This document shows positions 939 to 19,263 of a stretch of 64,000 bases of DNA, piece after piece. The position numbers and the translations under genes were made by a program. Source of the stretch: Kyrpidia spormannii (lineage in GTDB: Bacteria; Bacillota; Bacilli; Kyrpidiales; Kyrpidiaceae); contig NZ_CP024955.1 of NCBI RefSeq assembly GCF_002804065.1, forward strand, positions 558,001-622,000, in the 5' to 3' direction. The notes under the pieces were generated by a model. The model was not told where the DNA came from. It saw only the letters and a program-made list of their open reading frames with translations, and ran no database searches. Numbering within the stretch: position 1 is the first letter of the stretch; every line of letters begins with the position of its first letter.

Positions 939-1313
939 GTGAATCCGTATGATTACGCACATGGGCTTGCGAGGGCGCTTCGGGAGAGTGAATGGTATCG
1001 GAACCTCAAAGAGGCCAAGGAACGATTGGAGGCCGATCCGGAAGCTTTGCGGATGGCCCATGATATCCGGCGCCGCACGTTAGAACTTCAACTCAAGTCG
1101 ATGGGCGGGCAAACGGTAACCACCGAAGAGCAGGAGCAGTTGCGCAAGCTCCAGGAGGTGGCTATGTTGCACTCCGTCGTTCGGGCGTATTTAGAGGCGG
1201 AGTCGAGATTATCTGTAGTCATGGACGATATTCAGCGGATTCTCGCTGAGGCGATTGCCCCTGTGGTTGACTTGCCCGGTAAAAGGGAGACAGAGACATC
1301 GGAGCATCGGTGA
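939..1313 (+). CDS. YheA/YlbF-like UPF0342 family protein
   Basis: This 124-residue soluble, helical and highly charged protein opens MNPYDYAHGLARALRESEWY, with the later motifs ADPEAL and AEAI, as in the UPF0342 (YheA) branch of the YlbF/YmcA superfamily. It has no membrane segment or signal peptide. YlbF and YmcA of Bacillus form a complex that influences RNase Y and developmental decisions. The YheA branch has no firmly established function, so I assign only the family. The GTG start at 939 is chosen because GGGAGG lies 9-14 bases upstream. The C-terminal tail of about 15 residues after the conserved AEAI is charged and variable. It stands alone between a TnpB relic and an IS607-type element, which suggests that mobile DNA has rearranged both sides. 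Confidence 0.8.
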   Translation: MNPYDYAHGLARALRESEWYRNLKEAKERLEADPEALRMAHDIRRRTLELQLKSMGGQTVTTEEQEQLRKLQEVAMLHSVVRAYLEAESRLSVVMDDIQRILAEAIAPVVDLPGKRETETSEHR

Positions 1314-1418
1314 CGGGTCGCATGGCGGACCGGTGATCTCGGCCGACCGCACGTTTTGTATTTCTCCTTTTCTCTGGCGGTGTCTTCCGTCTCAGACGGT
1401 TGCCCTGCTTCTCTTTAT

Positions 1419-1923
1419 TGTGGACGGCAATCTCCAGCGGCAACGGGAACGGCTGGAGCGGTACGCGGAAGAACGCGGGTACGATGTGGTCCGGGTGTTT
1501 TCCGAACAGGCGTCGGGGGTGGGCGAGAACCGGAAACAACTGGCGGCCCTGCTCAAACTCGCCGAAGACGGGGAGATCGACCGGGTACTGATTGAATACC
1601 CGGACAGGCTGGCGCGGTTCGGATACCGGTATCTGGAACGGTTTTTCGAGAGCCACGGGGTGACGGTCGAGTCCACTCACAAGACCGAGCCGAAGACATC
1701 CCAGCAGGAGCTGGTGGAGGATCTGTTGACGATCATCACCGTGTTTTCAGCCCGGATGTACGGCAAGCGGTCGCAGGAGTTCCGGAAAAAGATCGGGCAG
1801 GCCATGAAAGAGATGGGGGGTGAGGGCGCTGGCCGCGGTCATCAAGACGATCCGGATCGGGATTCACAGGGAGGTCCACCGGTGCAAGACGGAGGCGCTG
1901 GAGATGACCAAGGACATCTATAA
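1419..1923 (+). pseudogene. IS607-type serine recombinase (TnpA), 5'-truncated
   Basis: From about base 1419 the frame encodes the C-terminal two-thirds of an IS607-family serine recombinase: GNLQRQRERLERYAEERG, then FSEQASGVGENR, IEYPDRLARFGYRYLERFFE and a terminal helix rich in Lys and Arg. In intact relatives this is preceded by a MerR-type helix-turn-helix and a YxRVSS segment with the catalytic serine. Both are absent. The sequence upstream (1314-1418) reads as unrelated residues with no frameshifted remnant that I could find. The protein therefore lacks the nucleophile and should not catalyse transposition. The frame overlaps the start of tnpB, as is usual for IS607 elements. After about 1815 the reading frame runs through tnpB DNA and is probably not meaningful. 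Confidence 0.8.
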
Positions 1924-3325
1924 CCAGGTGATTGCGTTTTACATGGACTTTTTCACGGCCCATCTGAACGTGTTGGACGAGCCGGTTCAGGTTCGGAAGA
2001 AGGACGGGACGGTCAAAGAACGAACGCGCACCAACCAGGAACTGTTGACCTTCGCGGAGTTTCACACCCTGGCGACCAAAGCCCACCCGAACCCGGGGTG
2101 GCCGCTCGACGAACACGTTCCGGCGGCGGAGGGGATGCCGACGGAGTTGCGGCGGGCGGCGATCAACCAGGCTATCGGCAAGGTGCGGTCCTGGTGGAGC
2201 CACCTGAAAACTTGGGAGGAAACAGCACCGGACCAGCGCGGGCGGGAACCACGACCCGGCGCACCGAACGAACCGGTGACGTTTTATGCGGGGATGGTCG
2301 AGCACCCCGCGTATGACCTAAACCCGCAGAAGAAAAAGCGGCATACGTTCATTAGCCTGAAACTGCACACGGGGCAGAAGTGGGAAAAGGTGTCGCTGCC
2401 GGTGGTGGTTCATGCCCAGGCTGAAGGGCTTCTCGCCGGGTCCGCCCTGGAGAAAGAACGCATCGCTCGGGAAAGGAAACGTTCAAAGACGGGCCAGGCC
2501 GGTTCCGGCGAAGAAAAAGGGGGCTCCGGGGCTGGGACATGGGTGGCGAAATCCCTGACGGTGTACGGGAAGCGGGACAAACGATATCCAGGCGGGATGC
2601 GCTATGCGCTGCACATCCCGATGGAGAAATCCGTCGACAAACCCCGGAAGGCAGAGGAACAGCGCCGGGCAAACCCACAGATGCCGGTGGTCGCGGTGGA
2701 CCTGGGCGTGGGCAGGCTGGCGGTAATGGGAGCGTTCGTGGAAGGGCGGCTGGCGGCCACGAGGTTCGTGGACGGCAGGGCCTTGAACCATCGCCGGCAC
2801 CGGCTGTTGACCGTCATTCACCGCAAGCGGAAACAAAGCGGACGGCTCCAGCCGGGCGTCCAAGACAACGCGAACTTGTGGAACAAGATCCGGAACCTGG
2901 ACGAAAATGCGGCCAAGCAGACGGCCGTGGCCATTGTCCGATTCGCGAGGGAGCACGGCGCAAGGGTGATCGTGTTCGAGCACCTGCGCCGGTACCGGCC
3001 GCCGAAAGAGAAGATGAGCCGGAGCGATCGGAAGAACCACAAACGGGCGTATTGGTTGCGCGGACAGATCATGGAATGGGTCCGGGACTTGGCGTTTCGG
3101 GAAGGGATTCTGACGGTGGAGCGCAACCCGGCCTATACCTCCCAGGTCTGTCCGCACTGCAAGGTGCTCGGGGAACGCAACGGCTCACGGTTCACATGCA
3201 AGAACCCGAACCACCGGTACAACGCGGACGCGGATTTTGTGGGGATGATGAACCTGTACAGGAAATGGACGAAGACATTCGTGTATCCCCGCAAAGGGGA
3301 TGACCCAAAGCCAGAGGTTGCCTGA
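1820..3325 (+). CDS. tnpB: RNA-guided endonuclease TnpB (IS607-type OrfB)
   Basis: This 501-residue protein keeps all the expected catalytic features of TnpB. RuvC-I is VVAVDLGVGRLAV with D294, RuvC-II is RVIVFEHLRRYR with E387, and RuvC-III is NADADFVGMMNL with D472. A zinc-ribbon segment between the last two has CPHC (C444, C447), C460, and a histidine (H465) where the fourth cysteine is usual. The first 280 residues are the basic, helical recognition and wedge part. TnpB proteins are nucleases guided by an RNA (omega RNA) derived from the 3' end of their element; they cut DNA at vacated insertion sites and favour element retention. The GTG start at 1820 overlaps the broken tnpA frame. No internal stop or frameshift is visible, although the partner recombinase is truncated. 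Length is in the upper range for the family. Confidence 0.88.
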   Translation: MRALAAVIKTIRIGIHREVHRCKTEALEMTKDIYNQVIAFYMDFFTAHLNVLDEPVQVRKKDGTVKERTRTNQELLTFAEFHTLATKAHPNPGWPLDEHVPAAEGMPTELRRAAINQAIGKVRSWWSHLKTWEETAPDQRGREPRPGAPNEPVTFYAGMVEHPAYDLNPQKKKRHTFISLKLHTGQKWEKVSLPVVVHAQAEGLLAGSALEKERIARERKRSKTGQAGSGEEKGGSGAGTWVAKSLTVYGKRDKRYPGGMRYALHIPMEKSVDKPRKAEEQRRANPQMPVVAVDLGVGRLAVMGAFVEGRLAATRFVDGRALNHRRHRLLTVIHRKRKQSGRLQPGVQDNANLWNKIRNLDENAAKQTAVAIVRFAREHGARVIVFEHLRRYRPPKEKMSRSDRKNHKRAYWLRGQIMEWVRDLAFREGILTVERNPAYTSQVCPHCKVLGERNGSRFTCKNPNHRYNADADFVGMMNLYRKWTKTFVYPRKGDDPKPEVA

Positions 3326-3812: not shown

Positions 3813-3872
3813 AACGCCAGTCGCCTTCGGTGCCCGTCGTGGGCGATCATCCGTTTCATGAGGGCGCGATAA

Positions 3873-3927
3873 CCATCTGTCCCCCGGCTTCGTCATAGGG
3901 TTGGCGGGCCCGCCAAACGACAGATGG
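3873..3927 (+). promoter_or_regulatory. Nested inverted repeats covering the ribosome binding site of the ABC ATPase gene
   Basis: A perfect 9-bp inverted repeat, ccatctgtc (3873-3881) and gacagatgg (3919-3927), encloses a perfect 16-base palindrome ttggcgggcccgccaa (3901-3916). In the mRNA the 3' arm overlaps the first bases of the GGAGGAG ribosome binding site (3926-3932) and an alternative ATG at 3924. Folding would hide the translation start at 3939. Confidence 0.6.
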
Positions 3928-3938
3928 AGGAGATCCCC

Positions 3939-4814
3939 GTGATCGAGATTCGAGGGCTGTGCAAACGCTACCGACGCCACTGGGCGCTCCGGGATTTGGA
4001 GTTAACCGTGGAGACCGGCATGTTCGGGTTGCTCGGCCCAAACGGTGCCGGCAAGACCACGCTGATGCGCATCCTGGCGACCCTGCTTCGGCCCACGTCC
4101 GGAGAAGTGCGGATCGACGGGATTTCACTACGGCAAAATCCGGACGAAATCCGGAAACGAATCGGCTATCTTCCTCAGTTTTTTCAGATCTACCCGCAAA
4201 TGACCGCCTGGGAATTCCTGGATTACGTCGCGGTCCTGAAAGGGTGGACAGATGCCCGCAAGCGCCGGGAACAGGTGATGGAAGTTGTGGAGCAGGTTCA
4301 CCTCGCCGATCGGGTGTCGGACAAAGTGAAGACCTACTCCGGCGGGATGCGCCAGAGGCTGGGCATTGCCCAGGCTCTCCTCGGCGATCCCCAAGTGTTG
4401 ATTGTGGACGAACCCACGGCGGGGCTGGATCCCGAAGAGCGGGTGCGGTTCCGGAATCTGCTGGCCACCTTGGCGCTGCACAAGACGGTGATCCTGTCCA
4501 CCCACATTGTCGGCGACATCGAAAGTTCCTGCCGCCGGGTGGGCGTGCTCGATCAGGGGAGGTTGGTGTTGGCCGGCAGTCTTGGGGACCTACAGGCTTT
4601 TGCCGAGGGGAAGGTCTGGGAGGTCCGGGTGGGGGAAGAGCGGCTGCCGGAGTTGGCCCGGTGGCAGCTGATCTCCACCCGCCAGGAGGGCAGCGAGGTG
4701 GTGTGCCGGGTGATTGCCGACGAGCCTCCGCTCTCTGGAGCGAGGACGGTGGAGCCCACCTTGGAAGACGGGTACTTGGCTCTTCTCAGCCGCAGGGGAG
4801 GGGATCGCCGGTGA
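3939..4814 (+). CDS. ABC transporter ATP-binding protein
   Basis: This is a single-domain ATPase of an ABC-2 type exporter, about 291 residues. It has Walker A GPNGAGKTT (residues 33-41), Q-loop in YLPQFF, signature YSGGMRQRL (133-141), Walker B VLIVDEPTAGLDP and the H-switch STHIVGDI. A C-terminal extension of about 80 residues resembles those of DrrA/CcmA-like exporters. It would energise the two membrane proteins that follow. The GTG at 3939 is preferred because GGAGGAG lies 7-13 bases upstream; an in-frame ATG at 3924 has no ribosome binding site and falls inside a predicted RNA stem. The stop overlaps the next start (GTGA), which indicates translational coupling. Expression is probably controlled by the structured leader and the hairpin just upstream. 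The substrate is unknown. Confidence 0.92.
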   Translation: MIEIRGLCKRYRRHWALRDLELTVETGMFGLLGPNGAGKTTLMRILATLLRPTSGEVRIDGISLRQNPDEIRKRIGYLPQFFQIYPQMTAWEFLDYVAVLKGWTDARKRREQVMEVVEQVHLADRVSDKVKTYSGGMRQRLGIAQALLGDPQVLIVDEPTAGLDPEERVRFRNLLATLALHKTVILSTHIVGDIESSCRRVGVLDQGRLVLAGSLGDLQAFAEGKVWEVRVGEERLPELARWQLISTRQEGSEVVCRVIADEPPLSGARTVEPTLEDGYLALLSRRGGDRR

Positions 4815-6943
4815 AGTCCTGGCTGACGACGTGGAGAATCGAGAGCCGGCTGTTGTGGACAAACCCGGTTCTACTCTCGATCGCCCTGGGCTACGGTCTC
4901 TGGTTTGCCTTCATCCTGTCCCGGTTGGGCCCTCCCTCTTCCGAGGATATTTACCGGGCGGTGTACGGGTTTCACGAAATATGGCAAACCCTTAGTCTGG
5001 GGCTGGCGATGTGGCTCGGCATCTGGCTCATGCGGCGGGACGTGATGCGGCCGAGTTATGAGTGGCTCGGGGCTTTGCCCGTTTCCCGGGCCGGACTGAT
5101 CGGGGCCAAATACCTGGCGGGTTTCTTGTATCTGAGCTTGTTCACTGCCTTGGTTGTCGTGGTGTTCGCCTATTTCGGCCGGGTGCGGGAGTTGCCCTGG
5201 GACATTGTGTCGCGTCACCTCGGTTTTTTCGCAATCCAGGACGAGTGGTCGTACATGGTGACCTTGGCCCTGGCCATGTTCCTGGCAGTGGCTATCCCGG
5301 GGCGGCTGGTTTACTTGATCGGATTTTGCGCCTGGGTCTTCGGGACATTTTTCTTGGAGAAAATCGTTATCGGGACAAAAGATTGGTATTTTCTCAAGAC
5401 CTTTCATCTCAACCAGTGGTTTGGCAACGACTACATCGTCGGTTACGAGGCCTGGGGATATCCACTGATTTCCCGGGAAATCGCCCTGTCCCGGGTGTTT
5501 GTGGCGGTGTTCGCGCTCTGGTTGGTGGTTTCCGCGATGGTGCGGCTGGCCCACCGCTGGCCCTCCACCCGGCGGAAAATGGGGCTGGCGGCGGCTGCGG
5601 TGTTGTTTGGGGTGTCGGGGGTGGCCTACGTGCCTTATGGCTTGTGGTGGAAAGACCGATACGACACTCGAGGGACGATCCAACAGTGGACCCCGCAGGA
5701 GCAGGGGGCAACAGCAGTTCACACTTCCTTTCCCGTGCAGTCCTACTTGATATCGGTGGATCGGGCAGTGGATGACCGGTTGACTGTTGTCGCCGACCTG
5801 ACCCTTCGGCCACAGAACCTGGGGCCAGGACAAACCGTGACCTTCACCCTCAATCGTTTATTTCAGATCGACCGCGTGACGGTTGACGGCCAAGAGGTCG
5901 CCGTGAGCCGGGATGTTGATCATTTCAGCCTGCCGCGTGCCGCCTTCGGCCAGGGACCGGGGCCGGTGACGGTGCGGGTGCGCTACAGCGGCAAAGTCTA
6001 TGATTGGCTCACCTCGCCAGGGGAGCGGTTTGCGGCGTTCGTACGGGGGAACGACGTCTATCTGCCTTACACCCAAGGGTGGTATCCGCTCCCGGGGAAG
6101 GAGACGCTGAAAATCCGGGAACCGAGCTATATCCAACTCGGTTCCCCCAACGATCTGGAGTTGCAGCCCGCAGACTTCCGGGTGGTGCTTCGGGGCTTTG
6201 AGGCGCCGGTATTCGCCAACGTAGCTGGGCACCCAGGGCCCGGAGGAGAGATGGTTTTTTCGGGCGGCCACCTGGACGGTGTGTCATTGTTTGGTGGCAC
6301 GATTATTCAGGTTGAGGCGGCCCAAGGCGGGACATCAGTCATCTGTAGCCCTTCGAACAGCGTGGAGGCGCGGCGCTTTGCGGCGGAGCTGGACCGGGCG
6401 AGAAGCTACGTGCAGCCCTGGCTGAACCCGCCGACAGACCGGGTGCGCAGGGTGGTCTATCTTCCGGTCCCACCTTTGGGCGCGGTGGGGGATCTTCCTC
6501 TGTGGCCCGCAGTGCTGAGCGGGGACAGTTTTCTTACCGGAGAAACCCATTATCACAACCTTGACGAATACCGGTTGGCGGAGGTGGTGTCGGCCTGGCT
6601 ATACGGAATTCCGGACGTCCAGCATGGATTCTGGAGCGATCCGGCGGGGGAAGGGCCCGGGCGGGATTCCGTGACCCGGGACATTGGCCGGGCGTTGGTG
6701 TACGTCGTTTTACGAGAGGGGGTTGGGTTGCCCTCGGGGAAGTCGCTTGCCGCTGTGGGGGGGTTGAACGATGTCGTGCGGCAGCCCATCGATCAGGCCC
6801 TGGCTGCCGGGCAGAGCGAGAAGGTGCGCCAAGTGTTGAAGGGGTTCTATGACCGGGTGTTCCGGGGGGCGACTGCTCCTAACGCGAATCTGCCTGCGAT
6901 TTCCGTGCAGCAATGGCAGGAAGCCTGGAGGGGAACGCCATGA
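4811..6943 (+). CDS. ABC-2 type permease fused to a large peptidase-M1-like outer domain
   Basis: This 710-residue protein begins with six membrane segments (about residues 19-38, 57-75, 101-121, 147-180, 225-243 and 257-277), as in ABC-2 exporter permeases. Residues 281-710 form a long extracytoplasmic part. It opens with a beta-rich stretch containing LTLRPQNLGPGQTVTFTLN and PVTVRVRYSGKVYDW, which resembles the N-terminal domain of M1 aminopeptidases. Fusions of ABC-2 permeases with M1-like domains are known, but here I find no HExxH zinc motif in the C-terminal half, so hydrolysis looks unlikely; ligand binding or scaffolding is more plausible. The GTG start overlaps the ATPase stop and the stop overlaps the next ATG, so the three genes form one coupled operon. 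The same frame is open far upstream inside the ATPase gene, but that part is a shadow frame. Confidence 0.85.
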   Translation: MKSWLTTWRIESRLLWTNPVLLSIALGYGLWFAFILSRLGPPSSEDIYRAVYGFHEIWQTLSLGLAMWLGIWLMRRDVMRPSYEWLGALPVSRAGLIGAKYLAGFLYLSLFTALVVVVFAYFGRVRELPWDIVSRHLGFFAIQDEWSYMVTLALAMFLAVAIPGRLVYLIGFCAWVFGTFFLEKIVIGTKDWYFLKTFHLNQWFGNDYIVGYEAWGYPLISREIALSRVFVAVFALWLVVSAMVRLAHRWPSTRRKMGLAAAAVLFGVSGVAYVPYGLWWKDRYDTRGTIQQWTPQEQGATAVHTSFPVQSYLISVDRAVDDRLTVVADLTLRPQNLGPGQTVTFTLNRLFQIDRVTVDGQEVAVSRDVDHFSLPRAAFGQGPGPVTVRVRYSGKVYDWLTSPGERFAAFVRGNDVYLPYTQGWYPLPGKETLKIREPSYIQLGSPNDLELQPADFRVVLRGFEAPVFANVAGHPGPGGEMVFSGGHLDGVSLFGGTIIQVEAAQGGTSVICSPSNSVEARRFAAELDRARSYVQPWLNPPTDRVRRVVYLPVPPLGAVGDLPLWPAVLSGDSFLTGETHYHNLDEYRLAEVVSAWLYGIPDVQHGFWSDPAGEGPGRDSVTRDIGRALVYVVLREGVGLPSGKSLAAVGGLNDVVRQPIDQALAAGQSEKVRQVLKGFYDRVFRGATAPNANLPAISVQQWQEAWRGTP

Positions 6944-7632
6944 CTCTGTGGCTGCGGGAATGGCGGTCCCTGCGATCGGCCATGGCGGCGGCGATCGCGG
7001 GGTATGTGATGTTGGTGCTTCTGTCCTTGATCGTGGCGGACAGGCCGAGGAACGTATTCTACTATAATGAAATGGGATCCGTGCTCCTGGCGATCATGGC
7101 AAGTGGGACATTGTTCCAACGGGAACTGTCCGGCAGCCAAATGGAATTGTTCGCCGCCTATCCGGCCTCTTTGGCGGGGATGGTAGTGAGGAAGGGGGTT
7201 TGGGCCCTCGGAGTGGTCCTCGTGTTTCATCCCATGTGGACCCTTGTGTACCTTTGGAAATTCCAGGGGATGATTACATACGTATCCATTCCTTGGGCGG
7301 GAGTCGGGCCGGGGGCGCCGGTGTCGGAGATTGATCTGCTGGCCGTGGCTGTGCCGGGGTATCTGGCGGCCATTGGGATCACTATCGCGGTGATGGTGGC
7401 CGCCAAGCGGGTGCACATTGGGCTTCTGGCTGGTTTCGGTTTCTGGCTGTGGCAAAGCCTTCAAGGGCCCGGCCTAGGAAGCGTGAGTTTGTTCACGCCG
7501 TATCTGCCGCAAAATACTTCACTTTTGGCGAATCGGTTGGTTTGGGCGGGGATCGGGATGGTTTGCGTCGTTGTTGCGGCCGGCCTGGCGGAACGAAGAG
7601 AGCGGTGGATCGGCGTCGACTCGCCCGAATAG
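6940..7632 (+). CDS. ABC-2 type membrane protein, second permease subunit
   Basis: This 230-residue hydrophobic protein has about six membrane segments. It starts MTLWLREWRSLRSAMAAAI and has the cytoplasmic segment FQRELSGSQMELFAAYPAS, which is typical of ABC-2 permeases and often lies near the coupling helix. The ATG at 6940 overlaps the upstream TGA as ATGA, so translation should be coupled to the permease-M1 fusion gene. An in-frame ATG at 6913 lies inside the upstream gene and is less likely. With the ATPase and the fusion protein it probably forms a heteromeric exporter. The substrate cannot be inferred from sequence. The operon ends at a long inverted repeat before the convergent trans-sulfuration gene. 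Confidence 0.82.
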   Translation: MTLWLREWRSLRSAMAAAIAGYVMLVLLSLIVADRPRNVFYYNEMGSVLLAIMASGTLFQRELSGSQMELFAAYPASLAGMVVRKGVWALGVVLVFHPMWTLVYLWKFQGMITYVSIPWAGVGPGAPVSEIDLLAVAVPGYLAAIGITIAVMVAAKRVHIGLLAGFGFWLWQSLQGPGLGSVSLFTPYLPQNTSLLANRLVWAGIGMVCVVVAAGLAERRERWIGVDSPE

Positions 7633-7723: not shown

Positions 7724-8905
7724 TTAGCACGTCACCTTGCGCGCACTTTCCTCCACCTGGGCGCTGGCCGCAAGCGCGAGGGCCTGGTCCAAATCCTGGA
7801 TCAGGTCATCAATGTGTTCAAGGCCTACAGACAGCCTCAGAAGAGAGTCCGTGACGCCGAGGCGCTGTCGTACATCTGGGGGAACGTCGGCATGGGTCTG
7901 GACCGCCGGGTAGGTGATCAGCGATTCGGTGCCGCCGAGGCTTTCTGCAAAGGTGATCACCCGCAGGTGCGCGAGGATCGGGGGCACCCACCTGTTGTTC
8001 GCCACTTCAAAGGCAATCATCCCACCCCACCCGCTGGCCTGTGCCCGATGCACGGCGTGGCCGGGATGGTCCGGGAGTCCGGGGTAATACACCCGGGATA
8101 CCCGGGGATGTGCCTTCAGCCACTCGGCCAGGGCTCGGGCATTGCTTTCATGCCGGTCCATGCGCACGTGGAGAGTTTTTACCCCCCGCAACAGCAGCCA
8201 AGCGTCCTGAGGACCTAACACCGCGCCAATGGAATTTTGAATAAAAGCCAGGGAATCCGCCAACGCCTCTGACTTTACGACTACTGTGCCGGCCAAGACA
8301 TCGTTGTGTCCGCCGAGATACTTGGTGGCCGACTCGACCACGATGTCCGCCCCCAGTTCCAGGGGCCGTTGCAGGTACGGAGTCATAAAGGTGTTGTCGA
8401 CAATGAGCCAGGCTCCGCGTTCGTGGGCAAGCCGTGCCAATCCCCGAAGGTCGGCGATTTTGAGGGTGGGATTGGTCGGCGTTTCCACGAACAGCGCCCG
8501 GGTATGGGGGCGGATTTGCTTGGCCACGGCCCGCAGGTCGGAGGTGTTTACATAGGTGGTTTCCAGACCCAGTGGGCGAAAGAGCCGTTCGAATAAACGG
8601 TAGGTGCCGCCGTATAGATCGTCCGAGAGCACGAGATGATCTCCTGGGCGAAACAGGCGGCCGATGGCGTCGATGGCCGCCATGCCGGAAGCGAAGGCAA
8701 ACCCCCGGCATCCCCCGTGCAAGGCGGCGATCGTTTCCTCCAAGGCCAGGCGGGTCGGATTCGAGGTTCGGGTATAGTCGAAACCGGTCGAAGAACCGAG
8801 GCCGGGATGAGCGTACGTGGTGGCGTGGTGGATGGGTAAAGAAATCGCTCCGGTGATGGGATCTCGGCGGGTTCCCGCCTGGGAACATCGCGTGTCAATG
8901 CGCAT
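7724..8905 (-). CDS. PLP-dependent trans-sulfuration enzyme (cystathionine gamma-synthase / beta-lyase family)
   Basis: This 393-residue Cys/Met-metabolism PLP enzyme has the substrate and cofactor motifs YTRTSNPTR, FASGMAAI, VETPTNPTLKIADL and VESATKYLGGHND, with the Schiff-base lysine at K195, and the C-terminal FAESLGGTESL. Family members make or split cystathionine, or use O-acetylhomoserine, on the route between cysteine and methionine. The exact reaction cannot be settled from sequence; SATKYLGGHNDV is close to the Bacillus MetI/MetC group. The ATG at 8905 is chosen because AGGAGGG lies just upstream and homology begins there, although the frame extends 52 codons further into the riboswitch. 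A SAM-I riboswitch and terminator in its leader place it in methionine supply, switched off when S-adenosylmethionine is plentiful. Confidence 0.9.
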   Translation of the reverse strand: MRIDTRCSQAGTRRDPITGAISLPIHHATTYAHPGLGSSTGFDYTRTSNPTRLALEETIAALHGGCRGFAFASGMAAIDAIGRLFRPGDHLVLSDDLYGGTYRLFERLFRPLGLETTYVNTSDLRAVAKQIRPHTRALFVETPTNPTLKIADLRGLARLAHERGAWLIVDNTFMTPYLQRPLELGADIVVESATKYLGGHNDVLAGTVVVKSEALADSLAFIQNSIGAVLGPQDAWLLLRGVKTLHVRMDRHESNARALAEWLKAHPRVSRVYYPGLPDHPGHAVHRAQASGWGGMIAFEVANNRWVPPILAHLRVITFAESLGGTESLITYPAVQTHADVPPDVRQRLGVTDSLLRLSVGLEHIDDLIQDLDQALALAASAQVEESARKVTC

Positions 8906-8950
8906 GCCTAACCCTCCTGCAATTCCGGTGGAAACCCGTTCCAGAATGGC

Positions 8951-8977
8951 AAAACCCACTCCTGAGGGGAGTGGGTT
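8951..8977 (-). terminator. Intrinsic terminator of the SAM riboswitch
   Basis: On the minus strand cccactcc and ggagtggg form an 8-bp stem with a short loop, followed by a TTTT run. It lies between the SAM aptamer and the gene start at 8905, where the riboswitch expression platform should be. Confidence 0.85.
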
Positions 8978-9004
8978 GTCAACAAAAGCCGATCCTCCGG
9001 CACT

Positions 9005-9116
9005 CCTCTCATCTCTCAGGTCGCTCACGCGGCCTGCAGGAATTGGCACCTCTCCGGACATTCCGGTGGTTGCCGGGCTTCATCGGGCCAGTCCCTCCGC
9101 CACTCTGGATAAGAGT
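9005..9116 (-). promoter_or_regulatory. SAM-I (S-box) riboswitch aptamer
   Basis: On the minus strand the aptamer reads CTCTTATCCAGAG, then GGCGGAGGGACTGGCCC, GATGAAGCCCGGCAACC and, after a variable stem, GAGAGATGAGAG, which pairs with the 5' CTCTTAT to close P1. These are the hallmark conserved blocks of the SAM-I class. It sits 100 bases upstream of the trans-sulfuration gene and ends in an intrinsic terminator, so SAM binding should cause premature termination. Confidence 0.95.
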
Positions 9117-9174
9117 TCACCGATTCGATTGTTGAGTACACCATATCATGGAACGATCTTTTTGTCGAGAGCGT

Positions 9175-10350
9175 TCAGCGCCGCAGGGCGGAGTTGTCAT
9201 ATTCAAAAATCGCCAGGCGGTTCAACAAGTCCTGCAAAGGATCGGCCGCAGGCCGCAGGGGTGACGCGTTCGGCCGGGAGGCTTCCCGGGCGGCGATGGT
9301 CGTCAGGGTGCCGGGCGGCTGATTCGTTTCAGAAGGTCCTGCCGGAGCGGGCAGGTGCAGGATATCTACCAGAATCGGTTGGAGGCGGTTCCAGCGGACG
9401 TAGCCGTTGTGGTCGGCGCTGACCTGAATGGTGGTCCCGCCGAAGGGATATTGTTGGGCCGGGGCGGGCACGGCGCCGTCATTGGCGGGATATCCCAAAG
9501 CCGACAGGGCGGCATAGCCCGCCCGGAGAAAAGGGCTGCTGATCGTATCGGCTGACGGGATGCTCCCTACCACAGACACCACCCGGAGAGCGCGAAGGGT
9601 GGGGTTCTCGCTATGTAAAGCGGTCACTTCCTGCCGCACCTTGGCCGGAGTAAGGCTGCGGTCCGCCGCCGCGCCGAATAACGTTGCGGGAATCGGCGAA
9701 TCCGGGGGCAACTGGACCACGCGGTTCAAAAGGTTTGCCAGAGGGCTCCCGCCCCAGGGGGTGCCGAGGCTGATCAGAGCCGCGGCGTCCAGCGGCCGGT
9801 AGTCGCCCAGGGCCACGTACGCATCAAGGCCCCCCATGCTGTGGCCGATGAGGACCAAGCGGCCATCGATGCCCGGGACTTGCTGGCGAAGAACGCTGAG
9901 TTGGCCCGCCAACAGATGGCCATTGGCAATAAAATCCGCATCAGGGTCCAACTTCACCGTGGCCACGTTATAACCCGCCGCATAGGCTTCACGGTATACG
10001 TCTGTAAATACCGACGCATCTTCATAAATCCCGTTGATAAACAGGAGAAATGGACGATTCTCATCGTGGATGTGGTAAAATACGGTGCCGATGGGATTCC
10101 GGCGGACCGCGTCCACCGTGAATTGATCGGGACTTACATCGATCAAGCGAATGTGGTGTGTGATCTTTGGTGTCAAAGAGCCGACCTCGCCCCCGACGGT
10201 AATCGGGACGCCGGGGTTCTCAGCGGCCAAGGGCTCCCCATTGGTGATCGCCGGATGGGTATAGGAATAAGCGAACGCTTGGCTCATCCCCATGGCGGCA
10301 AAAGCGACGGTCACGCTCAGGATCTGGCGAAGCTGTTTACGGGTGTCCAA
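9175..10350 (-). CDS. Secreted lipase-like alpha/beta hydrolase
   Basis: This 391-residue protein has a signal peptide (basic start MDTRKQLRQ, hydrophobic core to about residue 27, AFA cleavage motif). The mature part is an alpha/beta hydrolase with LVLIGHSMGGLDAY, giving the nucleophile elbow GHSMG with S171. Other family-like segments are FLLFINGIYE (oxyanion loop region), SLGTPWGGS and, near the end of the fold, VSADHNGYVRW, which may hold the catalytic histidine. It probably hydrolyses lipid or other esters outside the cell. The TTG start at 10350 gives a complete signal peptide and has GAGGGA upstream, but the spacing is long. It is monocistronic, with no regulatory motif seen. The Pro-rich last 60 residues look like a disordered tail. 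Confidence 0.8.
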   Translation of the reverse strand: MDTRKQLRQILSVTVAFAAMGMSQAFAYSYTHPAITNGEPLAAENPGVPITVGGEVGSLTPKITHHIRLIDVSPDQFTVDAVRRNPIGTVFYHIHDENRPFLLFINGIYEDASVFTDVYREAYAAGYNVATVKLDPDADFIANGHLLAGQLSVLRQQVPGIDGRLVLIGHSMGGLDAYVALGDYRPLDAAALISLGTPWGGSPLANLLNRVVQLPPDSPIPATLFGAAADRSLTPAKVRQEVTALHSENPTLRALRVVSVVGSIPSADTISSPFLRAGYAALSALGYPANDGAVPAPAQQYPFGGTTIQVSADHNGYVRWNRLQPILVDILHLPAPAGPSETNQPPGTLTTIAAREASRPNASPLRPAADPLQDLLNRLAIFEYDNSALRR

Positions 10351-10639
10351 CTCTTCGTCACTCCCTCGATCCGGAAGAATTCCGCGTTGTTGTGTCTCCG
10401 GAGAGCTTCGGCACAGCCGTGCGCGGAGATTCAGTGAACCGCCGGATCATGGGTTCCGGAGCATCTGCGCGAAGCCGAAGAGGGCATGGTCGATCGGCTG
10501 TTCATCGCTCGTGTCATGTCCATCCTATCACAGACCCCGGTGCTCATGAAACGGGGAGAAAAAATTTTGGCGCGGAAATATAGGGCCAAGGGCTTCCGCG
10601 GAGGGCCATTGATGTCAGTGGTGGTGGGCCAGGGAATAA

Positions 10640-10834
10640 ACCAACTTTGGGACTCAGGTCGACCGGGACTTTGTCATCGTCGAGTTGCACGCCGGGGATC
10701 ACGTGGGATACGGGGAGTGCACCGTCGCTACAAAGCCTTTGTACAATGAAGAGACGCCCGAAACGGCTCGGATCGACCAGGTTCCGTTGCGGACGGCTTT
10801 GGTGGCAGAAATGCTGAAGGTTTTGGCAGCGTAA
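10640..10834 (+). pseudogene. Fragment of an enolase-superfamily enzyme (o-succinylbenzoate synthase / N-acylamino acid racemase type)
   Basis: In one frame, without a start codon, about 64 codons read FGTQVDRDFVIVELHAGDHV, then GYGECTVATKPLYNEETPET, and end at TAA. This matches the conserved N-terminal capping domain of MenC/NAAAR enzymes (FGTxxxxxFVxVE, GWGE, YxEET). The true N-terminus and the whole catalytic barrel are missing, so it is a remnant. The rest of the 10351-11043 intergenic stretch shows no gene I can support. Confidence 0.5.
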
Positions 10835-11043
10835 TGAATAGATCCCAGCGGGCGGGAGTTTCCCCGCCGCTTTTGTCATGGGGTGGGTTGGAAAGATAAA
10901 GCGGACGTAAACCGTTTTGGAACACTTTTGTTATCGAACAAACACGGGTTCCGGAAGGATTTTTTCGGGCGGCGTCGTAAAATGTTTGTTGATGGAGCTA
11001 TTTTCTATATGAATACAAAATATACAGAATTGGGGGTCGACAG

Positions 11044-16726: not shown

Positions 16727-16957
16727 CAATGGGCCGGAGAGGGCCGGAACCGGAGGGCTCAAGGGGCCGGAGCCACTGTCGCGCACTGCCGATATAACGA
16801 TTTACCCCTCATCTTCGTCCTAAGGTACGGCCGGTCTGTCGAAAGAAGAGGACATCGACGGGGATGGCTGAGGCTCCTTTGGCCGACGACGGTGCGGGTG
16901 GAGCTTCTTTTTTTGTCCCTTTGCGAGCGAGTTCGGGGGCGGCTTGGAGGTGCTGGG

Positions 16958-17551
16958 ATGGAAAGTGACGAAGCGTTGGCCCGGGCTTTTGCAGAGGGTC
17001 ATACCGGATCCTTTGAAGTCCTTGTTTATCGATACCATCGCCCGATTCACGCTTATATCCAGCGCCTTCTGGGAAGAACGGAGCCGGCGGAGGATCTGGT
17101 GCAGGAGACGTTCTTTCGGTTCGTCCGGGAGGTACAACGGGGACGAGTGCCGGAGCGGGTTCGCCCGTGGCTCTACCGGGTGGCGACGAATTTGTGCCGG
17201 GATTACTGGAAAGCGGCGGAGCGGCGTTCGGAGCCCGGGCTGCCCGAGGACTGGAGCCCGGCGGTGCTGGAGAAACCCTCGGTGTCGGAGATCTATGAGC
17301 GCCTGGAAACCCGGCAGATGATCCGGGATGCCTTAGATGAACTTTCCGAGATCCAGAAGCGTATGGTCATCTTGCGATTTTATCAGGACCTGACGTACCG
17401 GGAGATCGCCGAGGTGTTGGAGGTGCCGGAGGGGACTGTCAAAGCATACCTGTTCAAGGCGCTGCGCCACCTTCGGGAGGTCTTTGAGCAGAGGGAGCCG
17501 ATGGGAAAAGGGGGCGAAGGGATTGCGGCCAGGGCAATATCCAGGCGATGA
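16958..17551 (+). CDS. ECF-type RNA polymerase sigma factor
   Basis: This 197-residue protein has sigma region 2 (residues 10-80: FEVLVYRYHRPIHAYIQRLL, then AEDLVQETFFRFV) and region 4 (about 115-170: RMVILRFYQDLTYREIAEVL and PEGTVKAYLFKALRHLRE). It lacks regions 1 and 3, as ECF sigmas do. It would direct RNA polymerase to a small regulon, perhaps including its own operon. The ATG at 16958 follows GGAGG at a good distance. Downstream lie a membrane protein and an ABC ATPase in the same direction. This order recalls the Bacillus sigY-yxl operon, in which the partner membrane proteins restrain the sigma factor. Confidence 0.9.
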   Translation: MESDEALARAFAEGHTGSFEVLVYRYHRPIHAYIQRLLGRTEPAEDLVQETFFRFVREVQRGRVPERVRPWLYRVATNLCRDYWKAAERRSEPGLPEDWSPAVLEKPSVSEIYERLETRQMIRDALDELSEIQKRMVILRFYQDLTYREIAEVLEVPEGTVKAYLFKALRHLREVFEQREPMGKGGEGIAARAISRR

Positions 17552-17570
17552 CAGGCTCGATTCGGAGTTG

Positions 17571-18380
17571 ATGGAGCTGGAGCGGATGATGCGCCCCCGT
17601 TTGGCGCCCTATCCGGTGAAAGAGCCCACCCCGGAGGAAAGCCGTCAATTGGTGCAGCACCTTCTGCAGCGCGCCGAGCGGCAGGACCCTCTGTCGGATC
17701 TGGAAACCCGGGGAGTAAGGCGGCGGATGCTCTCCTTGGGACAGTTCATCCGGCTTCAGATGGGGACTTACGGATGGGGATTCTGGGCGGTGAGCCTGGT
17801 GATTTTTGTGCTGCTCACCCTTTCTGCGACCCAGATGTCCCAGGGGCATGGAGAGTCGTCTCTGAATCTCTATGCCATGATTTTGCCAGGTTATGTGGTG
17901 GCAGCTGCGGTTTACGGTCGGGTATCCGGAGATCGGGGCATGCGGCTGGTGGAGAATACCGTGCCGTTCCCGCCGGCGCTGCTTTGGCTCATACGGGTTC
18001 TGGTGGTGACGGGGTTGAACATCGCCTTCGGGGTTCTGGGGACGGCGCTTTTGGCGTTTACCGTGCGTGGGATGGAGCCTTTTTTGTTCTTGGTCCACTG
18101 GCTGTCCGCGGTGTTTGCTACGGGTGGGCTCACGGCCTGGGTGCTTTTTCGCCGGGGGGTTCGCCCGGCCATAGCCACGGGCATCGAGGTCTGGGCGCTG
18201 GCCGCGGTGCTTCAGCAGCCGTCTTTTCTGGGAGATACCGCGGCCTCTTGGGGAAGCGTGCTCTTGCTCGTCGCCGGCTTGGCGGCGATGGTGCGGGCCG
18301 GACGAAGGGGGTACGCGATGTGGAAGGCCTGGGCTGGAGTTCCCGGCTTGGTCGGGTGGCCTCTACACCGCCGAGGGTAG
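17571..18380 (+). CDS. Multi-pass membrane protein with cytoplasmic N-terminus; likely sigma-factor partner or ABC membrane subunit
   Basis: About 269 residues. The first 80 are soluble and charged (KEPTPEESRQLVQHLLQRAE), followed by six or so hydrophobic helices from FWAVSLVIFVLLTL to WGSVLLLVAGLAAMV. Its place between an ECF sigma gene and an ABC ATPase, with a 19-base gap to the former, suggests one of two roles: anti-sigma factor (soluble N-terminus binding the sigma) or the membrane component used by the ATPase. Both would fit a SigY-like operon. I do not recognise a precise family. The ATG at 17571 is chosen because it falls just after the sigma gene; the frame is also open upstream to a TTG within that gene, so the start is uncertain. 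Confidence 0.7.
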   Translation: MELERMMRPRLAPYPVKEPTPEESRQLVQHLLQRAERQDPLSDLETRGVRRRMLSLGQFIRLQMGTYGWGFWAVSLVIFVLLTLSATQMSQGHGESSLNLYAMILPGYVVAAAVYGRVSGDRGMRLVENTVPFPPALLWLIRVLVVTGLNIAFGVLGTALLAFTVRGMEPFLFLVHWLSAVFATGGLTAWVLFRRGVRPAIATGIEVWALAAVLQQPSFLGDTAASWGSVLLLVAGLAAMVRAGRRGYAMWKAWAGVPGLVGWPLHRRG

Positions 18381-18405: not shown

Positions 18406-19263
18406 ATGATTACCATGGTCGATGTTCACTTTTGCCGGGAGGGGTTTTGTTTGGCCATCCCCGGCCGCCTGACTTTGGGGCGGGGGCTGACCCTGCTGGT
18501 CGGGCCCAATGGAGCAGGAAAATCAACCCTTCTCGAAGTGCTCTCCACGGCGGCGATGCCCGACCAAGGGGAAATCTGGTATCGGGATCGGCGGGTTATC
18601 GAGGACCTGGCTGGCATCCGGGGGACGATCGGCTATCTTCCCGCCGATTTTCAACCTTATTCTCATATGACGCCGAGGCGATTTCTTCAGTACATGGCCG
18701 TCCTCAAAGGGGTGGATCCGGGCATTGAGGTAGAGGAAAGGCTGGCGCGAACCGATCTCGTTCCCGTTTGCGACGTCAGAATTTCTAAACTGTCTGAGGG
18801 TACGAAGCGGCGGTTGGGCATTGCCCAGGCTCTTCTCGGGTCCCCGGAGGTTCTATTGCTCGACGAACCACTTACCCACCTGGACGGAGTTGAGCGGCGT
18901 AAAATGATCGAGTTTTTGACTCGATACGCCAGAGGCCGCACGGTGGTAGCCGTCAGTCACGAACTGGATGAATGGGATCATGTGGATCAGATCGTGTGGC
19001 TCGAGCAGGGTCAGCCTGTTTTTTTCGGGCCACCGGCGCTATGGGTGACGGGGTTGGGGGAAAAAGTGTGGTCTAAGGTGCTCGATCCCGAAGAGCTCGA
19101 AGGGCTGGAGTCTCGTCGGATCCTCGCCTGGCGGTGGACAGGGGACCGCGTCCGGGTACGTTTGTTTGCCCGGATGGCGCCCGGGGACGGGTTTCGGGAA
19201 GAAACACCCACTCTCCAAGAGGCCTACGTGATTCGGCGGGAGGAGCGGCGGATCGGTCCCTAG
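18406..19263 (+). CDS. ABC transporter ATP-binding protein of the sigma-factor operon
   Basis: This 285-residue ATPase has Walker A VGPNGAGKSTLLE, Q-loop region IGYLPADFQPY, a divergent signature LSEGTKRRLGIAQ (Glu instead of Gly at the second position), Walker B LLLDEPLTHLDG and H-loop VSHELDEWDHV. The arrangement is that of ABC-2 exporters such as YxlF of the Bacillus sigY operon. The ATG at 18406 has AGGAGGAG upstream and lies 25 bases after the membrane protein gene. No separate permease follows, so the membrane protein upstream is the only candidate partner here. The modified Q-loop (LPADF, lacking Gln) and the modified signature suggest slower or regulatory ATP hydrolysis. Confidence 0.88.
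   Translation: MITMVDVHFCREGFCLAIPGRLTLGRGLTLLVGPNGAGKSTLLEVLSTAAMPDQGEIWYRDRRVIEDLAGIRGTIGYLPADFQPYSHMTPRRFLQYMAVLKGVDPGIEVEERLARTDLVPVCDVRISKLSEGTKRRLGIAQALLGSPEVLLLDEPLTHLDGVERRKMIEFLTRYARGRTVVAVSHELDEWDHVDQIVWLEQGQPVFFGPPALWVTGLGEKVWSKVLDPEELEGLESRRILAWRWTGDRVRVRLFARMAPGDGFREETPTLQEAYVIRREERRIGP

Follow-up and report, generated by a model that had tools for sequence, protein, structure and literature searches.

The window analyzed here, a stretch of 64,000 nucleotides from Kyrpidia spormannii, encodes a predicted fusion (FUS) of an ABC-2-type permease with an M1-like outer domain, the zinc site of which appears to be lost, together with two ABC ATPases (ATP1 and ATP2), a second permease (PERM2), an ECF sigma factor (SIG) and a further membrane protein (TM3). 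We give a slightly better than even chance to the view that these six genes make up a transporter module that regulates itself: the M1-like pseudo-peptidase would bind a ligand outside the cell and transport activity would free SIG. The sequence-only reading of this DNA had recognized the M1-like fold without a zinc site, which stood, and had missed the ECF sigma factor, the second ABC half-transporter and the shared promoter. The features are listed below with their basis in parentheses.

3871-3897, + strand: candidate promoter of ECF type before the first half, AACCATCTGTCCCCCGGCTTCGTCATA, AAC-N17-CGT (pattern search)
3939-4814, + strand: ATP1, ABC ATPase with Walker A/B and Q-loop intact (Pfam, motif reading)
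4811-6943, + strand: FUS, predicted ABC-2-type permease with M1-like outer domain, 710 aa (ORF, hydropathy, fold match)
5660-6940, + strand: putative outer M1-like pseudo-peptidase domain, residues 284-710 of FUS (profiles, predicted fold, conservation)
6578-6592, + strand: putative HExxH-equivalent position, A590-E-V-V-S594, then AWLYG (element order, W-x-Y-G spacing)
6940-7632, + strand: PERM2, second ABC-2-like permease, start overlapping the FUS stop in ATGA, ORF open from 6913 (hydropathy, neighborhoods)
16796-16822, + strand: candidate ECF-type promoter before the second half, AACGATTTACCCCTCATCTTCGTCCTA, AAC-N17-CGT as in the first half (pattern search)
16958-17551, + strand: SIG, ECF sigma factor, regions 2 and 4 (Pfam, TIGR02937)
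17484-18380, + strand: TM3, membrane protein, 4-6 hydrophobic segments and a conserved head of ~95 residues (hydropathy, alignment)
18406-19263, + strand: ATP2, ABC ATPase whose Q-loop Gln is replaced, IGYLPA (motif reading, Pfam)

The FUS gene runs from a GTG codon at 4811 to a stop at 6943 on the forward strand and encodes 710 residues, at the coordinates first assigned to it. The start codon shares GTGA with the stop of ATP1 and the stop codon shares ATGA with the ATG of PERM2 at 6940, each a 4-base overlap. FUS is regarded as a real gene because its dN/dS is 0.19 against a genome of the same genus (G001) and relatives occur in other genomes, namely in 7 out of 61 genomes at E ≤ 4.3e-48 (its own counted) and in 20 out of 398 genomes of the class at E ≤ 1e-10. 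An eighth match among the 61 genomes (E 4e-4) resembles an ordinary permease of 265 aa, and no relatives were found in viral contigs or in plasmids. Hydropathy at a lower threshold identified seven segments within the first 283 residues (19-37, 56-74, 102-120, 142-160, 169-187, 229-247, and 257-275) instead of the six N-terminal helices counted previously. A basic loop (HRWPSTRRK) sits between the sixth and seventh segments and, because the seventh comes after this loop, the C-terminal 427 residues (284-710, previously put at about 430) are predicted to lie outside the cell. The ABC2_membrane models match FUS below threshold (17.9 bits against a curated cut-off of 25), and ABC2_membrane_5 matches 8 of the 21 FUS relatives at E ≤ 1. 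As in ABC-2 exporters, the permease has its own ATPase, ATP1; the dN/dS of the permease part is 0.16 against G001. The architecture proposed from the letters, an ABC permease with an M1-like outer part, thus holds as an ABC-2-type permease followed by an M1-like domain of ~427 residues.

The M1-like fold of the outer domain is supported by both a predicted structure and sequence profiles. Prediction of full-length FUS was poor (pLDDT 50), and the outer domain alone, built from five sequences, yielded a middling mean pLDDT of 63.7. M1 peptidases nevertheless account for all of the best 50 of 1182 Foldseek matches of this model in the PDB (E ≤ 1.3e-8, top 2.3e-10), and VIA aligned the N-domain with a best Z of 11.7 (145 residues at 3.1 Å). 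Longer VIA fits cover both M1 domains with an rmsd of ~15 Å in this middling-confidence model, so the arrangement of the domains in the model is unreliable; at that rmsd, and without a profile match, the Foldseek and VIA alignments pass through the gluzincin-type catalytic domain. In a profile-profile comparison of 21 FUS relatives with 11 Bacilli M1 peptidases, the outer domain reached Prob 96.2 and a score of 79.9, whereas the 61 decoys reached at best 19.4 (60 column-permuted) and 32.9 (one reversed). The signal resides in the N-terminal half of the domain (Prob 95.9), and the C-terminal half was not detected as M1 by this comparison (Prob 2.1). The N-domain fold of M1 peptidases is therefore found by profiles, Foldseek, and VIA alike, in agreement with the N-domain pattern noted from the sequence, and the prediction proved to be M1-like rather than an unrelated fold.

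One of the nearest known counterparts is a Deinococcus radiodurans M1 peptidase of two domains (PDB 6a8z, 6iff), the N-domain of which matches the FUS outer domain by profile; 6a8z was the top match of a PDB search with the profile of the 21 relatives (E 0.009). The same enzyme is in the Foldseek matches listed, covering most of the outer domain, although it carries no permease and is a zinc enzyme by title, while the FUS outer domain lacks HExxH. The profile of FUS relatives also recovers two soluble proteins with an intact HExxH, L095 (above the Pfam Peptidase_M1 cut-off) and L101 (just below it). Pfam searches with single proteins showed weak ABC2 matches and no M1 match for FUS and its relatives, and the outer domain is therefore easily overlooked; a single-protein PDB search gave no useful match. 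A KDA-type repeat was observed near the FUS C-terminus in a Paenibacillus record (L014, approximately 8120-8256).

The absence of HExxH, first remarked in FUS itself, extends to all 21 aligned relatives. Judging from how the elements follow one another and from the W-x-Y-G spacing, A590-S594 is the probable counterpart of the motif, as the window reads AEVVSAWLYG against, for example, HELAHQWWYG in Bacilli M1 enzymes. Among 15 close rows, Glu 591 is present in five and the second His in two at this position. Of the outer-domain columns, 40 are conserved at 85% or more in these rows and none of them is H, D, E or C, which leaves no candidate for a substitute zinc site built from other residues, the outcome that would have overturned the earlier claim. 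The third zinc-ligand Glu on the next helix is likewise missing, as H/D/E/C columns are unconserved in the 15 rows, and FUS contains no MEN string of the GxMEN motif. The outer domain is accordingly described as a putative pseudo-peptidase because it has neither HExxH nor conserved H, D, E or C, and the alignments support a loss of catalysis. Across 29 phylum-wide loci (L077-L105), HExxH strings occur in L095, L101, L097, and L105, of which L097 is a permease-type ORF with HEGDH and no M1-like context, and in L105 the string and the match are on opposite strands. The soluble M1 peptidase at L095 (2-2988, HExxH intact) is located directly downstream of a radical-SAM/SPASM gene, and the two are possibly a peptide-maturation pair.

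In Bacilli, the cassette has the gene order ATP1, FUS, PERM2, SIG, TM3, and ATP2. A search of 22 neighborhoods with the six window proteins identified all six genes together in 11 loci (L011, L012, L014, and L045-L052). Among these, ATP1 and FUS are each in two reading frames in L051 (G057, 8091-10975), through either decay or sequencing error, and in L052 a gap of 1.5 kb precedes ATP2. Five genes were identified in L013, the contig of which begins within FUS, and in L044 and L053, where PERM2 was not detected. The cassette is divergent in L054 and L057, and in L055, L056, L058, and L059 FUS adjoins an ATPase and no SIG match was present. In the window the six genes are split into two halves by 9.3 kb, and in G001 the locus (L043) holds the first half only, with a 98% identical sigma factor ~1.8 Mb away. 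At E ≤ 1e-25, SIG occurs in 8 out of 61 genomes, which are the seven FUS genomes and one weak extra. Tables of recurring neighbors, covering 7 of the 22 loci, contained beyond the six genes stretches common to Paenibacillus-like loci. Together, gene order and co-occurrence support the assignment of the six genes to one cassette.

Several other genes lie close to the cassette. A gene for a Cys/Met-metabolism PLP enzyme (window 7724-9061) adjoins the first half and recurs in five other cassette neighborhoods, which may reflect either synteny or chance with a common family. Directly upstream of the first half, an IS607-like element (1255-3325) consists of a serine-resolvase ORF and a TnpB-like ORF (Cas12f1-like TNB domain), and a resolvase-type ORF is also found near SIG in G001 (L072).

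The ATP1 reading frame is open from an ATG at 3924, although the GTG at 3939, after GGAGGAG, is the likelier start. ATP1 matches ABC_tran (E 3.6e-35), its dN/dS of 0.48 against G001 derives from very few changes, and the Q-loop Gln is kept in 14 out of 14 parsed sequences (of 16). In LanFEG-type ATPases, Glu replaces this Gln. ATP1 was thus rejected as a LanFEG-type lantibiotic immunity ATPase, as the Gln is kept and the score against the lantibiotic-protection ATPase model TIGR03740 (151.6 bits) is half of the cut-off (309.75). For PERM2 (dN/dS 0.18 against G001), the family evidence is that its L014 relative weakly matches ABC2_membrane_4. SIG is an ECF sigma factor by TIGR02937 (99.4 bits, cut-off 42.9), with a dN/dS of 0.10 against G001; SigY itself was rejected, as SIG scores 79.2 bits against an NCBIfam SigY cut-off of 194. 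The start of TM3 is uncertain (17484-17571). Before its first hydrophobic segment, most of 16 aligned sequences share a head with a consensus like ELExLExxLxxxLxxYxVKxPSxxxT, and a P-P-A-L stretch looks, by eye, like the coupling region found in ABC-2 permeases. TM3 has no family match in Pfam (E ≤ 0.1) or NCBIfam (E ≤ 1e-5), and it is therefore by a guess from position and conserved head that we suggest an anti-sigma role for this candidate anti-sigma/permease chimera. At the Q-loop Gln position of ATP2, A, S or T was found in 14 out of 14 parsed sequences (of 17).

A promoter shared by both halves is supported by the pattern AAC-N17-CGT, which occurs 40-170 bases upstream of ATP1 in 16 out of 17 cassettes compared to 3.0% of random stretches; the pattern was picked after inspection of the sequences, and the independent lineages are fewer than 17 because the cassettes include close pairs. 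Only L053 departs from the pattern, by a spacer that is one base short, and the pattern is absent from all four relatives that lack SIG. In the window and in G001, where SIG is separated from the first half, a second copy of the pattern belongs to SIG. SIG may thus read AAC-N17-CGT promoters. A scan of the own genome with a stricter pattern gave seven matches, two of which are the cassette promoters, against six for a reversed control, so the other five may be chance; none of the five is clearly in front of a gene. Promoter-like matches in ten other genomes were hardly commoner than in the control (24 versus 18). As the matches approximate the controls in both scans, no regulon target beyond the cassette is claimed. 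Just downstream of the first-half promoter, at 3901-3916, is a perfect 16-base palindrome, TTGGCGGGCCCGCCAA; palindromes with arms of at least 6 bases occur at this place in 6 out of 16 promoters compared to 5.5% of random stretches, a count inflated by related pairs.

In the self-regulated module that we favor, ATP1, FUS, and PERM2 would form an ABC-2-type transporter with FUS as the ligand-facing subunit. The outer domain would be a former M1 peptidase with its fold kept and, because the zinc site is lost, would bind or gate rather than cut. SIG, TM3, and the atypical ABC ATPase ATP2 would constitute the other half, in which the conserved head of TM3 probably holds SIG. Binding and handling of an outside compound, such as a peptide or envelope fragment, would change the state of TM3/ATP2 and free SIG, which would then transcribe both halves from the AAC-N17-CGT promoters. 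We infer the direction of export, the ligand class, TM3 as anti-sigma factor, and activation by transport.

The best of the alternatives, which we consider unlikely, is a plain resistance pump that removes a toxic compound, with the M1-like domain as a non-binding mechanical lid or assembly scaffold and the sigma factor using another sensor. This would suit an ABC-2-type transporter without conserved charged pocket residues and an outer domain that evolves faster in its C-terminal half (dN/dS 0.27 against G001) than in its N-terminal half (0.13). However, purifying selection acts on the outer domain, none of the 21 aligned relatives lacks it, and SIG co-occurs with FUS. That the transporter is dedicated to the export of a RiPP or bacteriocin made by the organism itself is improbable. 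Two observations point in this direction: ATP1 resembles the lantibiotic-protection ATPase model, though no more closely than at family level (half of the cut-off), and a radical-SAM/SPASM gene lies next to the soluble M1 relative L095. Yet the 4-base overlaps in the window leave no room for a precursor gene between ATP1, FUS, and PERM2. Moreover, the suggestion that RiPP or bacteriocin genes might accompany the exporter was not borne out, as none recurred near the cassettes (7 of 22 loci tabulated, ORFs of at least 90 aa). It is hardly credible that the domain is an active peptidase with a differently built metal site, since the Glu 591 and second His of a few close rows are set against H, D, E or C columns that never reach 85% in the 15 rows.

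The cassette can be set beside several known transporter and sigma factor systems. In Bce-type transporter/two-component modules, a large outer domain acts as sensor and signaling occurs by transport activity; by this description, the cassette would differ in having an ECF sigma factor in place of the two-component system and an M1-like outer domain. Permease-M1 fusions with intact HExxH exist in other bacteria and, like FUS, combine an ABC-2 permease with an M1 domain, whereas all 21 FUS relatives lack the motif. The self-regulated sigY operon of Bacillus subtilis has an ECF sigma gene, an ABC transporter, and a negative regulator, and to our knowledge no M1-like domain or second ATPase. It thus joins an ECF sigma factor to an ABC transporter as the cassette does, although SIG is below the SigY cut-off. 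This operon is mentioned in PMC3498285. No literature was found on permease-M1 fusions with sigma factors, or on the genus, in a search that covered few subscription papers and is not proof of absence in print.

The example of the ECF257 group of ECF sigma factors comes from Kurthia, a genus of Bacilli. A review lists the mechanism of this group as unknown and places ABC transporters as well as AAA ATPases near its genes (PMC8999054). On that description, SIG may be likened to ECF257, and the described neighborhood would fit the cassette because ATP1 and ATP2 both match Pfam AAA_21. More tentatively, and at rather less than even chances, sigma signaling may operate here with no anti-sigma factor of the classical kind: one ABC transporter would carry a dead M1 domain as receptor, and TM3/ATP2, with the TM3 permease head holding SIG and its partner ATP2 lacking the Q-loop Gln, would convert transport into sigma release, which could also be the mechanism of an ECF group that has conserved ABC transporters nearby, such as ECF257. 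Because the loci are split in Kyrpidia and a copy of one promoter stands before either half, two small constructs would be enough to put the circuit to the test. If these proposals hold, evolution would have made a transporter-borne receptor out of a peptidase fold, and a transporter, not a separate anti-sigma protein, would control an ECF sigma factor.
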